This document shows positions 40,338-51,692 of a stretch of DNA of 53,979 bases, piece by piece; positions within the stretch are counted from its first letter, which is position 1, and each line of letters starts with the position of its first letter. Made by a program: the position numbers and the translations under genes. The notes beneath the pieces were generated by a model that was not told the DNA's origin, searched no databases, and was given only the letters and a program-made list of their open reading frames with translations. Origin of the DNA: Ectothiorhodospiraceae bacterium WFHF3C12 (GTDB lineage: Bacteria; Pseudomonadota; Gammaproteobacteria; Nitrococcales; Nitrococcaceae); contig JACDUA010000025.1 in NCBI GenBank assembly GCA_013519935.1, forward strand, positions 1 to 53,979, given 5' to 3'.

Positions 40338-40769
40338 TCAATCACCGCGGTCGAGTACGGCCTCCAGCGCCTCCCAGGCGAGCAGGACGCAGCGGGTACG
40401 GCTGGGGTAATGCCTGACCGGCCCCAGGGCTGGAAGCGGCTCGGGAAGGCCCGACGGCGGTTCCGTCGCCTCGCCGGAGAACCATTCGTTCATGAGCCGG
40501 TCGAGATCCAGCGCCTCGGCGACCTGACGGCCGCTGACCACCTCGGTCATCATCGAGCCGGAGGCTATGCAGATGGAGCAGCCGCGGGCGCGAAAGCGGA
40601 TGTCCTGAATACGCTCGTCCGCCAGCGTCACGCCCAGCTCCAGATCGTCGCCGCACAGCGGATTGTGGACCCGGGCAGTGACCTGGTCGCTCCCCGGCGA
40701 ACCCTGGTTACGCGGGGCGTGATAGTGGTCCATCATCACGCCCTTGTAGAGCTCGCTCGCCGTGGTCAT
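40338..40769 (-). CDS. SufU/NifU-like Fe-S cluster scaffold or sulfur acceptor
   Basis: 143 residues of the NifU-N family: LYKGVMMDHYHAPRNQG, then HNPLCGDDLELGVTL (Cys39, Asp41), FRARGCSICIASGSMMTEVVSGR (Cys64) and SRTRCVLLAWEAL (Cys127). The three Cys plus Asp match the SufU metal/sulfur site, and the insertion between residues ~90 and 115 (NEWFSGE) is the SufU-type loop. It is the last gene of the Mo-hydroxylase island; its ATG overlaps the stop of xdhC, so it is coupled to it. It could serve the 2Fe-2S subunits encoded here, or donate sulfur to the cofactor; both are inference. Confidence 0.88.
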   Translation of the reverse strand: MTTASELYKGVMMDHYHAPRNQGSPGSDQVTARVHNPLCGDDLELGVTLADERIQDIRFRARGCSICIASGSMMTEVVSGRQVAEALDLDRLMNEWFSGEATEPPSGLPEPLPALGPVRHYPSRTRCVLLAWEALEAVLDRGD

Positions 40770-41611
40770 CGGCTGGAACCGGCCTCTTCCATCTCCGGCG
40801 GTGTTCCGGCCGGCGTGTCATCGGCCAGACGCAGGCCGCGCATGGAGCGGCCGGTGCCCCCACGGCGCAGCTGGACAATCTCGCTGATAACGGACAGCGC
40901 GATCTCCTCCGGGGTCCGCGCACCGAGGTCGATGCCCGCCGGTGCGTGTACCCGGGCCAGCTGCTCGTCCGTATAGCCGCGCTGCTCAAGGAAGTCCATC
41001 ACCAGCCCCGCACGCTTGCGGCTGGCAATCAGCGCAATGTAGCCGGCGCCGGCATCCAGGGCGCGCACGGTGGACTGATGGTCGCCCTTGTGCTGTGTGG
41101 CGATGACCACGTAGTCGTCTTGTCGCGGTTCCAGCGCCGCGTAATCCATATCATCCGTGACCAGCCGGCTGGCGGCCGGATAGTCCCGTGCCGTGACCTG
41201 GGGATCGTTGACCACCACCTCCAGTCCCATCAGGTCACCCATCTGGCACAGGCACTCGGCCACTCGCCCGTGGCCCATGATCCAAAGCGTCGGTTTCGGC
41301 ATTACCGGCTCCACGTAAACCCGCATGCTGCCGCCGCAGGGCATCCCCACGCCCAGCATCTCGTCGGTCATGTCGATCTCCACCATCTGCGTGCGGCCTC
41401 CCTCCATGGCTTCCAGGGCCGCCTGACAGGTGGCCGACTCCGCGCAGCCGCCGCCCACCCAGCCGGCCAGCACCCGGCCGTCACGATCAATGACCGCCTT
41501 GGCCCCGGTCTTCGCCGAGACCGAGCCTTCCGTCTCCACCACGGTGGCCAGCGCATGAGGCTGGCGCCGGTCCCGCAGGTCTACCAGTACGTCGAGTATC
41601 TCCGTCGCCAT
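40766..41611 (-). CDS. XdhC/CoxI family molybdenum cofactor maturation protein
   Basis: 281 residues. The N-terminal XdhC_CoxI domain (LATVVETEGSVSAKTGAKAVIDRDGRVLAGWVGGGCAESATCQAA, ... MPCGGSMRVYVEPV) is followed by a Rossmann domain (TLWIMGHGRVAECLCQMGDLMGLEVVVNDP ... DDYVVIATQHKGDHQSTVRAL) and an APAGIDLGARTPEEIALSVISEIV end. XdhC binds Mo cofactor, protects it and helps its sulfuration before insertion into the hydroxylase. It follows the MobA-like gene (13 bases) and overlaps the SufU-like gene. Confidence 0.92.
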   Translation of the reverse strand: MATEILDVLVDLRDRRQPHALATVVETEGSVSAKTGAKAVIDRDGRVLAGWVGGGCAESATCQAALEAMEGGRTQMVEIDMTDEMLGVGMPCGGSMRVYVEPVMPKPTLWIMGHGRVAECLCQMGDLMGLEVVVNDPQVTARDYPAASRLVTDDMDYAALEPRQDDYVVIATQHKGDHQSTVRALDAGAGYIALIASRKRAGLVMDFLEQRGYTDEQLARVHAPAGIDLGARTPEEIALSVISEIVQLRRGGTGRSMRGLRLADDTPAGTPPEMEEAGSSR

Positions 41612-41624
41612 GTCTGCAACCCTT

Positions 41625-49044: not shown

Positions 49045-51228
49045 TCAGACATTCTCCCGAGCGCGCTTGAACGGCAGCTGCCGCACCCGCTCCCCGGTGA
49101 GCGCGAACCAGGCGTTGGCCACGGCCGGGGCGATGGGCGGCGTGCCCGGCTCGCCGACCCCGGTGGGCGCCTCGGCGGAATCGACGATGTGCACCTCGAC
49201 CTCGGGCATGTCCGTCAGGCGCGTGGGCAGGTAGGTATCGAAATTCTCCTGCTGCGGGCGGCCGTCCTCCAGCACGACTTCATCATAGAGCGCGGCGCCC
49301 AGCCCAAAGCCGATACCGCTCTCCATCTGCGCGGCGATGTTGTGCGGATTCACCGCCACGCCGCAGTCCACGGCGCAGACCACGCGGTGGACTTTCGGCA
49401 GGCCTTCCTCGCCCTTCGACACCTCCACGATTTCCGCCACGTAGCTCCCGAAGGACTTGTGAACGGCCACGCCCCGGGCCCTGCCCTCCGGCACCGGCTC
49501 GCCCCAACCGGCCTTCTTCGCGGCCAGCTCCAGCACCCCCAGGTGCCGGGGATGGTCCTGCAGCATGCGCCGGCGCAGGGCCACCGGGTCCTCGCCGGCG
49601 GCGTGGGCCAGCTCGTCGATGAAGGTTTCGGTGCTGTACGCAGTATGGGTATGGCCCACGGAGCGCCACCAAAGCGGCGGCACGCCCACCTCGGTATTGT
49701 GCAGATCCACCGCGAGGTGATCGAAGGCGTAAGGCAGGTTCTCGGCACCCTCCACGGACGATGGATCCACGCCGCTTTCCGGCACGGCACCCAGCTCCTT
49801 CATGATGGACTGGCCGACGATGCGCTGGTGCCAGACCAGCGGCTTGCCGTCGGCATCGAGACCGCCGCGCAGGCGATGGACGTACATGGGCCGGTAGCGA
49901 CCGCCCTGAATGTCGTCCTCCCGGGTCCATACCAGCTTGATGGGCCGGCCGCCGCCATGGGCCTTGAGGATGCTGGCGACCTCGAAGACCACGTCACCCG
50001 TGGGCGTCGCCCGGCGCCCGAAGCTGCCGCCGGCGTACAGGGTGTGGATGGCGATCTGCTCGGGTTTGACACCCAGAGCGTTCGCCGCCGCGCCCTGATC
50101 GATGGTGGGAATTTGCGAGCCCGCCCAGATCTCGTAACCTTCTCCGCGCCTGCGGATGACCGCGTCCAGCGGCTCCATGGGTGCGTGGGCCAGGAACGGG
50201 AAGCGGTACTCGGCCTCCACCACCTGTGACGCTTCATTCAAAGCTTTGTCGGCATCCCCGACGCGCTTCGCCGCCAGGCCTGGTTCCTTCGCCAGCTCGG
50301 CGTACTCGGCGTACAGGGCGGCGGAGCCGCGCTTTTCGGCCTTGCTCTCGTCCCATTCCACCTCGAGGCTGTCGCGGCCCTTCTTGGCGGGCCAGAACCC
50401 GGTGGCTAGCACGGCGATGCCCCGCGGCGTCTCGACCACGTCCACCACGCCCCTGACCTTGCGCGCGGCGGAGTCGTCATACGACTTCACCGTGGCGCCG
50501 AACCGCGGCGGGCGCAGCAGCACGGCCGTGAGCATGTCCGGCAGGTAGATGTCCAGGGTGAACTGCGCCTTACCGTTGGACTTCTCCGCCGAGTCCACCC
50601 GGCCGACGCGGGTGCCGATAAGCTTGAACTCGGACGGGTCCTTTAGCGCCACCTTCTCCGGTACCGGCTGCGTCGCCGCGGCCTCGGCCAGCTCACCAAA
50701 GCTCGCCCGCCTGCCGCTGCCCGCATGGCTGACCGTGCCGCTGGATACCTCGAGCTCACCGGCGGAGACACCCCAGCGTTCGGCAGCAGCCGCCACGAGC
50801 ATGGCCCGGGCCGTCGCCCCGGCCTGGCGCAGCTGCTCCCAGGAGTTGGCGATGGCCGTGCTGCCCCCGGTGCCCTGTATCCCGCCCAGGAGCGCATTGC
50901 CGTAAAGCGCGGCGTTGGCCGGCGCCGATTCCACCCGGACACTGCTCCAGTCGGCGTCCAGCTCTTCGGCGAGGATGGTGGCCAGGCCGGTGTAGGTGCC
51001 CTGCCCGAACTCGATGTGCTTGGAGATGACCGTGACCGAGTCGTCCGGGGCGATACGCACGAAGGCGTTCGGCACGAAGTCCTCAGGGCCATTGGCCGAA
51101 GCGGCGAACACCCGCGGGAGGCCCAGCGTCCAGTGAAAGCCGATGACCAGCCCGGCACCCGCTGCACCGGCACCCTGCAGGAAACGACGCCGGGAAGGCG
51201 AGAAAGCTTTCTCGTCCGCGTACGCCAT
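49045..51228 (-). CDS. Tat-exported molybdopterin subunit, IorB/aldehyde oxidoreductase type
   Basis: 727 residues. The twin-arginine leader [20 protein letters not shown] directs folded, cofactor-loaded protein to the periplasm. Mo-cofactor motifs are [45 protein letters not shown] and the C-terminal [17 protein letters not shown] with catalytic Glu693. The layout is that of IorB-type isoquinoline or aldehyde oxidoreductases, which lack an FAD subunit and pass electrons to a cytochrome. GGAGGGTT precedes the ATG at 51228, just after the 2Fe-2S subunit gene. Confidence 0.92.
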
Positions 51229-51230
51229 GG

Positions 51231-51692
51231 CTAACCCTCCATGTCCGCGGCCGCCTGATGGATGGCTGCGCGGATCCGGGCATACGTCGCGCAACGGCAG
51301 ACATTGCCGTCCATGGCCCGGTCGATGTCCGCGTCGGTGGGTTCGGGGTTGTCGCTCAGCAGCCCCACCGCCGACATCACCTGGCCGGACTGGCAGTACC
51401 CGCATTGCGGCACGTCCATACCCGACCAGGCATTCTGGACCGCCTTCGCCTCGCGGCCACCCAGACCCTCGATGGTGGTGACCTCGCGGCCGGAGACGGA
51501 TTGCACCGGCAGGACGCAGGAGCGCGTCGGCTTGCCGTCCAGATGCACCGTGCACGCTCCGCACCGGGCAATGCCGCAACCGTACTTGGTGCCGGTGAGC
51601 CGCAGCTCGTCACGCAGCACCCACAGCAGCGGCGTATCCGGGTCCACGTCCACCGTGTGCTCCCGGCCGTTGACCTTGATGGTTGTGCTCAT
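51231..51692 (-). CDS. 2Fe-2S subunit, IorA type
   Basis: 153 residues: [56 protein letters not shown] and [16 protein letters not shown]...[16 protein letters not shown]. All eight Cys are present. The short C-terminus and the QSGQ variant are typical of IorA rather than CoxS. No signal peptide, so it would be exported bound to the Tat-borne large subunit. Start chosen at 51692; an ATG four codons upstream is possible. First gene of the island. Confidence 0.92.

Follow-up and report, generated by a model that had tools for sequence, protein, structure and literature searches.

A form II Cox-type cassette ending in an XdhC-linked SufU gene, with an iorAB pair beside it, in an Ectothiorhodospiraceae bacterium

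We analyzed a 53,979-nucleotide stretch of DNA (hereafter the window), one whole contig (JACDUA010000025.1) of the 4.6 Mb, 168-contig genome of Ectothiorhodospiraceae bacterium WFHF3C12 (G000), which carries a run of eleven genes for two molybdenum hydroxylases and the maturation of their cofactor. Gene content and order identify the run as a conserved Cox form II cassette, coxG-S-L-M-D-E-mocA-xdhC-sufU, upstream of which an iorAB pair has been placed in this lineage. The explanation we favor, whose chances as a whole we put at about even, is that the Cox cassette with its local iorAB pair includes a SufU relay to the XdhC-bound cofactor and shares its maturation proteins with IorAB. Within it stands a more tentative proposal, held at somewhat below even chances, that a SufU with an extra cysteine (CxxC) was recruited, probably more than once, as a dedicated sulfur carrier from a SufS-type desulfurase to XdhC, and that SufS, SufU, XdhC, and MocA make up a portable module serving Cox- and IorAB-type hydroxylases alike.

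The eleven genes are all open and lie on the minus strand, from 51692 down to 40338; open frames and family matches bear out the same-direction run and the positions that an initial annotation had assigned to it. In gene order they are:

51231 to 51692, minus strand: iorA, [2Fe-2S] small subunit (Fer2 and Fer2_2; start at 51692).
49045 to 51228, minus strand: iorB, molybdenum subunit of the IorAB/AldH type with a twin-arginine leader, 727 amino acids (MoCoBD_1, MoCoBD_2, TAT signal; match to 8GY3 chain C).
48381 to 48956, minus strand: coxG, SRPBCC protein with a hydrophobic C-terminal segment (PF06240 COXG, 133 bits; C-terminal run read from the sequence).
47705 to 48175, minus strand: coxS, [2Fe-2S] subunit (NCBIfam gamma-subunit models, up to 221 bits).
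45316 to 47703, minus strand: coxL, form II molybdenum subunit, 795 amino acids (MoCoBD_1/2 and hammerhead; AYRGAGRPE; match to 8UEM).
44499 to 45302, minus strand: coxM, FAD subunit (FAD_binding_5, PF00941, 169 bits).
43401 to 44342, minus strand: coxD, AAA+ ATPase (AAA_5, PF07728; NCBIfam MadB_ATPase 265 bits, under its cut-off).
42203 to 43408, minus strand: coxE, VWA protein (VWA_CoxE, PF05762, 244 bits).
41625 to 42206, minus strand: mocA-type cytidylyltransferase (NTP_transf_3; TIGR03310 99 bits, cut-off 186; MobA model 19.6 bits).
40766 to 41611, minus strand: xdhC, maturation chaperone predicted to bind the molybdenum cofactor (XdhC_CoxI PF02625 and XdhC_C PF13478).
40338 to 40769, minus strand: sufU, SufU-type sulfur transfer protein with an extra cysteine, GCSICIAS (NifU_N; TIGR01994 123 bits).

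The initial annotation named a SufU-like gene without giving it a role. Its product passes TIGR01994 (123.2 bits, cut-off 92.5), its AlphaFold model (pLDDT 94.7) has the SufU fold and finds solved SufU structures in Foldseek, and it retains the Cys-x-Asp, Cys, and Cys positions that align with those structures, which we take to bind metal. Judged by its sequence and structural model, the run's last gene is a true SufU. The extra cysteine of GCSICIAS comes three residues after the second aligned cysteine (CxxC), in the first turn of a helix. The window yielded no desulfurase match, and the genome has a second SufU on contig C92, beside SufS, SufC, and SufD in a SUF operon, and a third NifU_N gene on C108 beside a desulfurase-like gene.

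Linkage of SufU to xdhC recurs among relatives. A census of 54 genomes of the order returned 52 SufU matches, or 50 copies once two weak ones (G026:C125 and G038:C152) were dropped, each viewed with flanks of at most 1.5–3 kb. SufU adjoins xdhC in 7 of the 54 genomes, and all 7 copies with xdhC in their flank carry CxxC, against 2 of the 43 unlinked copies; five of the seven entered the profile on account of their linkage, at a time when CxxC had not yet been noticed, and those of G025 and G030 are independent of it. The search of the phylum covered 398 genomes, with up to 10 candidates scored per genome, and gave 107 matches outside the window's genome. We read 67 of these with flanks of up to 8 kb each side (five loci were shorter than 9 kb): 7 chosen for showing CxxC among the returned loci, 20 of the 22 other returned loci, and 40 of the remaining 78, 30 of them spread over low scores and families and 10 mostly from one large family. 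Of the 12 CxxC copies in this set, 6 have molybdenum genes nearby, 4 have sufB or sufD, and 2 have neither; the 55 copies lacking CxxC include none by molybdenum genes and 43 by sufB or sufD. Fisher values for CxxC against molybdenum linkage, which ignore relatedness, are 9e-6 for the 67 loci and 4e-7 for the 50 copies.

The linked copies occur with both kinds of hydroxylase. Three genomes (G542, G681, and G425) have coxD-coxE-xdhC-mocA-sufU, with xdhC in two pieces and, in G542, a desulfurase before sufU; the MocA part in G425 makes up the latter half of a longer protein, which has a weak match, below cut-off, to a molybdopterin-binding model. Two others (G635 and G718) have desulfurase-sufU-xdhC-mocA-iorA-iorB in one direction, their IorB being 35–36% identical to that of the window, and G720 has sufS-sufU-xdhC-mocA. 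A desulfurase adjoins SufU at eight related loci (L159, L160, L162, L163, L262, L274, L290, and L296). These include SufS-like enzymes: those of L160 and L262 exceed the TIGR01979 cut-off, those of L162 and L274 have TIGR01979 as their best model at scores below it, and those of L163 and L159 are 64% identical to L162 and 92% to L160, respectively.

If the proposal holds, MocA would make the cytosine dinucleotide form of the cofactor and XdhC would hold it for sulfuration, while a SufS-type cysteine desulfurase would charge SufU, which would carry persulfide sulfur to the XdhC-bound cofactor prior to its insertion. The charging enzyme is probably the housekeeping desulfurase here, because the cassette has none of its own. 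A desulfurase-XdhC route exists: a section of PMC2997495 describes how Rhodobacter capsulatus NifS4 binds XdhC and sulfurates the cofactor while it is XdhC-bound. SufS, in turn, works with SufU as its sulfur acceptor, as stated in part of PMC8300815. From these two precedents and the gene order, we infer the path SufS to SufU to XdhC-bound cofactor. The carrier that brings sulfur to the molybdenum cofactor is little known. Within the open-licence PMC papers searched, none has XdhC together with SufU, and among the papers listed none connects SufU with sulfuration of this cofactor, judged by title and abstract opening. Were the proposal true, an XdhC-tied SufU would add a missing sulfuration step for other bacteria and connect iron-sulfur (Fe-S) with molybdenum cofactor assembly, and the relay might aid the making of active hydroxylases in foreign hosts.

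Several observations weigh against this proposal. In a tree of 55 hand-chosen SufU copies, 17 linked and 38 not, the best topology needs five linkage changes and the starred branches force two; an independent-pair test cannot reach significance. CxxC is also present in unlinked copies, the 2 of 43 from the order and 6 of 61 from the phylum (4 in suf operons, 2 by neither gene set), which rules it out as a strict marker of molybdenum linkage. In two genomes of the order with a CoxL ortholog, G001 and G024, the only SufU is of the unlinked, non-CxxC kind, and in G160 the 19 kb around coxSLM gave no match to any other gene of the window; SufU is thus not indispensable. None of the 80 iorAB loci nearest to the window's gave a SufU or desulfurase match in a run that detected seven controls.

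SufU could also serve the [2Fe-2S] subunits instead, acting as an Fe-S scaffold or a sulfur donor reserved for the two clusters of CoxS (and those of IorA) with no part in the molybdenum cofactor. Fe-S assembly is the normal work of SufU, as a portion of PMC8300815 has it, and CoxSLM and IorAB each have a [2Fe-2S] small subunit. We nonetheless consider this reading unlikely, since the genome already has SufU beside SufS, SufC, and SufD on C92 and the NifU_N gene beside a desulfurase-like gene on C108, SufU keeps xdhC or mocA as its neighbor, not coxS or iorA, and the 16 kb read for the sufS-sufU-xdhC-mocA set of G720 gave no match to a hydroxylase subunit.

Other SufU-like genes were met in the same searches. 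The desulfurase-SufU (CxxC) pair of L272 (8019–9654, G443) lies in 16 kb that gave no match to sufBCD or to molybdenum genes, and its desulfurase is 58% identical to the query desulfurase, which came from a molybdenum cluster. Ten SufU-like proteins reading AC(A/T)LGQA(S/A) (L270, L271, L277, L281, L283, L284, L286, L292, L293, and L294) have neither sufB or sufD nor molybdenum genes matched within 8 kb. Among plasmid records, the 14 with XdhC are all under 60% identity, and 40 of the 110 records for SufU were listed. Of three SufU regions read, two are annotated housekeeping suf operons, and in the third (L171), which carries no annotation, SufU reads GCAIS and adjoins a desulfurase-like frame.

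The remainder of the cassette is also found in relatives. CoxL carries the form II motif AYRGAGRPE, AYRGAGR being found likewise in L125–L128 and L159–L163, and the S, L, and M subunits are encoded together, as in form II Cox molybdenum hydroxylases. CoxL orthologs in the order are 78–86% identical, and the order coxG-S-L-M-D-E-mocA is retained in G001, G008, G024, and G027; xdhC follows mocA in G001 and G008, sufU follows xdhC in G008, and in G027 xdhC and sufU are divergent, upstream of coxG. A sample of 369 genomes of the class has CoxL at E <= 1e-200 in 8. Here, G104 and G346 have coxSLM-DE-mocA-xdhC followed by a desulfurase gene and then sufU; of the two, G346 alone gave a coxG match. 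In G317 and G207, the stretch immediately upstream of coxG holds XdhC-like pieces, a desulfurase, and sufU. Among 11 genomes with CoxL of at least 65% identity, a SufU of this linked kind lies by cox or xdhC genes in 8, one of which (G025) has it with xdhC on a separate small contig; G001, G024, and G160 are without such a SufU in the regions read. Two further places (L101 6862–9249, on G000:C35, and L129 9833–12103, in G027) encode a CoxL paralog that is about 52% identical and has the form II motif, with no coxS or coxM match in the 16–20 kb read.

We predict that CoxSLM is a cytoplasmic hydroxylase whose electrons most likely pass to quinone through membrane-anchored CoxG. CoxG appears as a route to the membrane in a section of PMC4240915, and a claim on CoxG and the membrane by Kropp 2025 is restated in a passage of PMC13240472. 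We judge it very improbable that CoxSLM works as a CO dehydrogenase and that the cluster serves CO oxidation. The best PDB match of CoxL (8UEM CoxL, E 1e-199) and its best NCBIfam matches are indeed CO dehydrogenases, and CoxD, CoxE, and CoxG are present; yet CoxL has AYRGAGR and no form I motif, scores 700 bits against CO_dehy_Mo_lg where the cut-off is 991, and belongs to a form whose activity a passage of PMC13240472 terms unresolved.

IorAB would be a separate, periplasmic dehydrogenase. Its two genes encode a [2Fe-2S] and a molybdenum subunit with no FAD gene in the pair, and IorB has a twin-arginine signal by TIGR01409 (20.9 bits, cut-off 16.7), the Pfam TAT model giving 20.4 bits, under its cut-off of 22.7. 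These are the features of an IorAB-type periplasmic hydroxylase, and the gene families support the initial annotation in placing two enzymes of different compartments beside one maturation set. The best PDB sequence match of IorB is the large subunit of an aldehyde dehydrogenase (8GY3 chain C, E 4e-84), so that the closest solved relative of IorAB is an aldehyde dehydrogenase, a point relevant to the name isoquinoline 1-oxidoreductase. Elsewhere, iorB of G001:C6 (L098 6583–8746) is broken into two frames near 7509–7514, by a pseudogene or an assembly error, and a Gemmatimonadales bin (L092 6559–12118) has two divergent iorAB pairs side by side, with IorB at 37% and 54% identity. In the window, 354 bases separate iorA from an upstream aldo/keto reductase gene (52047–53213, minus strand), in which a twin-arginine-like leader, SRRAFLRAG, was noted by eye; in G001, the sister genus, the gene upstream of iorA is a different one.

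On the view of the initial annotation, IorAB and CoxSLM would belong to a single co-regulated operon and might share a substrate or act on successive ones; a lack of conserved co-occurrence of iorAB with cox genes was among the grounds on which it would itself give this up. The genes do share a strand with short gaps: 2 bases for iorA-iorB, 88 for iorB-coxG, 205 for coxG-coxS, 1 for coxS-coxL, 13 for coxL-coxM, and 156 for coxM-coxD, then -8 for coxD-coxE, -4 for coxE-mocA, 13 for mocA-xdhC, and -4 for xdhC-sufU, negative values being overlaps. At the larger gaps the run splits into iorAB, coxG, coxSLM, and coxDE-mocA-xdhC-sufU; two of these gaps, at 48957–49044 and 48176–48380, had been given correctly, and the third, between coxM and coxD, had gone unmentioned. 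A consensus promoter scan of the stretch found 0 promoter-like sites (0.9 expected by chance) and a terminator scan 1 terminator-like site, on the plus strand, versus 4.2 expected, and comparison by eye of the upstream DNA at five coxG and four coxS loci gave possible -10-like words, nothing firm.

Co-occurrence proved rare. We surveyed the best 80 of at least 568 iorAB loci (IorB relatives of 54–64% identity, flanks up to 10 kb); because 16 of these loci span less than 15 kb, some coxD, coxE, or coxG neighbors may be lost beyond a contig end. These three genes accompany iorAB at one locus, L031, from an uncultured Rhodospirillales bacterium, a looser second case with coxG about 4.5 kb from iorA, and are absent from the other 79; a CoxM match occurs at 3 others (L035, L036, and L058), and xdhC or mocA at 21. 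Across the 54 genomes of the order, IorB is found at E <= 1e-100 in 5 and CoxL of at least 78% identity in 6 (one partial), with both only in G000 and G001. The two are on different contigs in G001 (iorB on C6, CoxL on C25), and in G008, G024, and G027, which have the Cox cassette, no iorB reaches E <= 1e-100. We reject a conserved IorAB-Cox operon on these counts, and the single operon of the initial annotation appears improbable to us. That IorAB and Cox are so close looks accidental and local: known kinds of genes have come to adjoin in one lineage, with iorAB as a neighbor and not part of a unit.

Sharing of the maturation proteins is a separate matter. Genome-wide, there are four MoCoBD_1 matches (the window has two, C35 and C165 have one apiece), two XdhC_CoxI loci (in the window and on C25), and seven NTP_transf_3 matches, of which only the window's is of the MocA type, itself under the MocA cut-off. 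It had been called MobA-like; it is a cytidylyltransferase-family gene at the place given, and the MobA label falls on its scores, 99 bits for the MocA model versus 19.6 for MobA. MobA itself is encoded on contig C84 (223 bits, cut-off 152), four of the other matches pass the GlmU, MurU, KdsB, and IspD cut-offs, and the one on C145 looks like a glycosyltransferase. Adjoining mobA is a YqeC gene (L136 692–1462, G000:C84; TIGR03172 136 bits, cut-off 73), a marker of selenium cofactor biosynthesis. With one MocA-type gene and two XdhC loci against four MoCoBD_1 matches, the maturation genes are fewer than the hydroxylases, which makes some sharing likely. The best support for sharing in the window is that a sufS-sufU-xdhC-mocA set occurs elsewhere in one run with iorAB (L274 and L290) or with cox genes, the two enzyme types that meet here. 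MocA, XdhC, and SufU thus probably serve IorAB too. The earlier suggestion of one maturation set for both enzymes remains plausible on these grounds, although the pairing it was built on is not conserved; the idea that one XdhC serves several molybdoenzymes has been published before as a speculation, in a section of PMC2997495.

Set beside known systems, the island resembles each in part. The 8GY3 aldehyde dehydrogenase, which we take to be called AldFGH, has a large subunit aligned by IorB residues 10–723, and it differs in that the window side has no visible cytochrome c gene: past window position 35000, no closed frame longer than 80 codons has a CXXCH motif. As in Bacillus subtilis SufS-SufU, the window protein has the SufU fold and the aligned cysteine and aspartate positions; it differs in being tied to xdhC and mocA rather than sufBCD and in its extra cysteine. 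The coxBCMSLDEFGHIK cluster of Oligotropha (Afipia) carboxidovorans likewise groups coxS, L, M, D, E, and G with XdhC-family genes, as sections of PMC4240915 and PMC2997495 describe, whereas it encodes a proven CO dehydrogenase and the window CoxL has the form II motif, with a gene order of G-S-L-M-D-E and with mocA and sufU in the cluster. On pAO1 and in Gramella forsetii, one XdhC or maturation set stands beside several molybdoenzymes, as it does beside two here; the enzyme types are unlike the window's, and the section of PMC2997495 on them mentions no SufU. The nearest parallel in mechanism would be XdhC-NifS4 of R. capsulatus, where a desulfurase also delivers sulfur to XdhC-bound cofactor: NifS4 transfers it directly there, and in the window system a SufU carrier would intervene.

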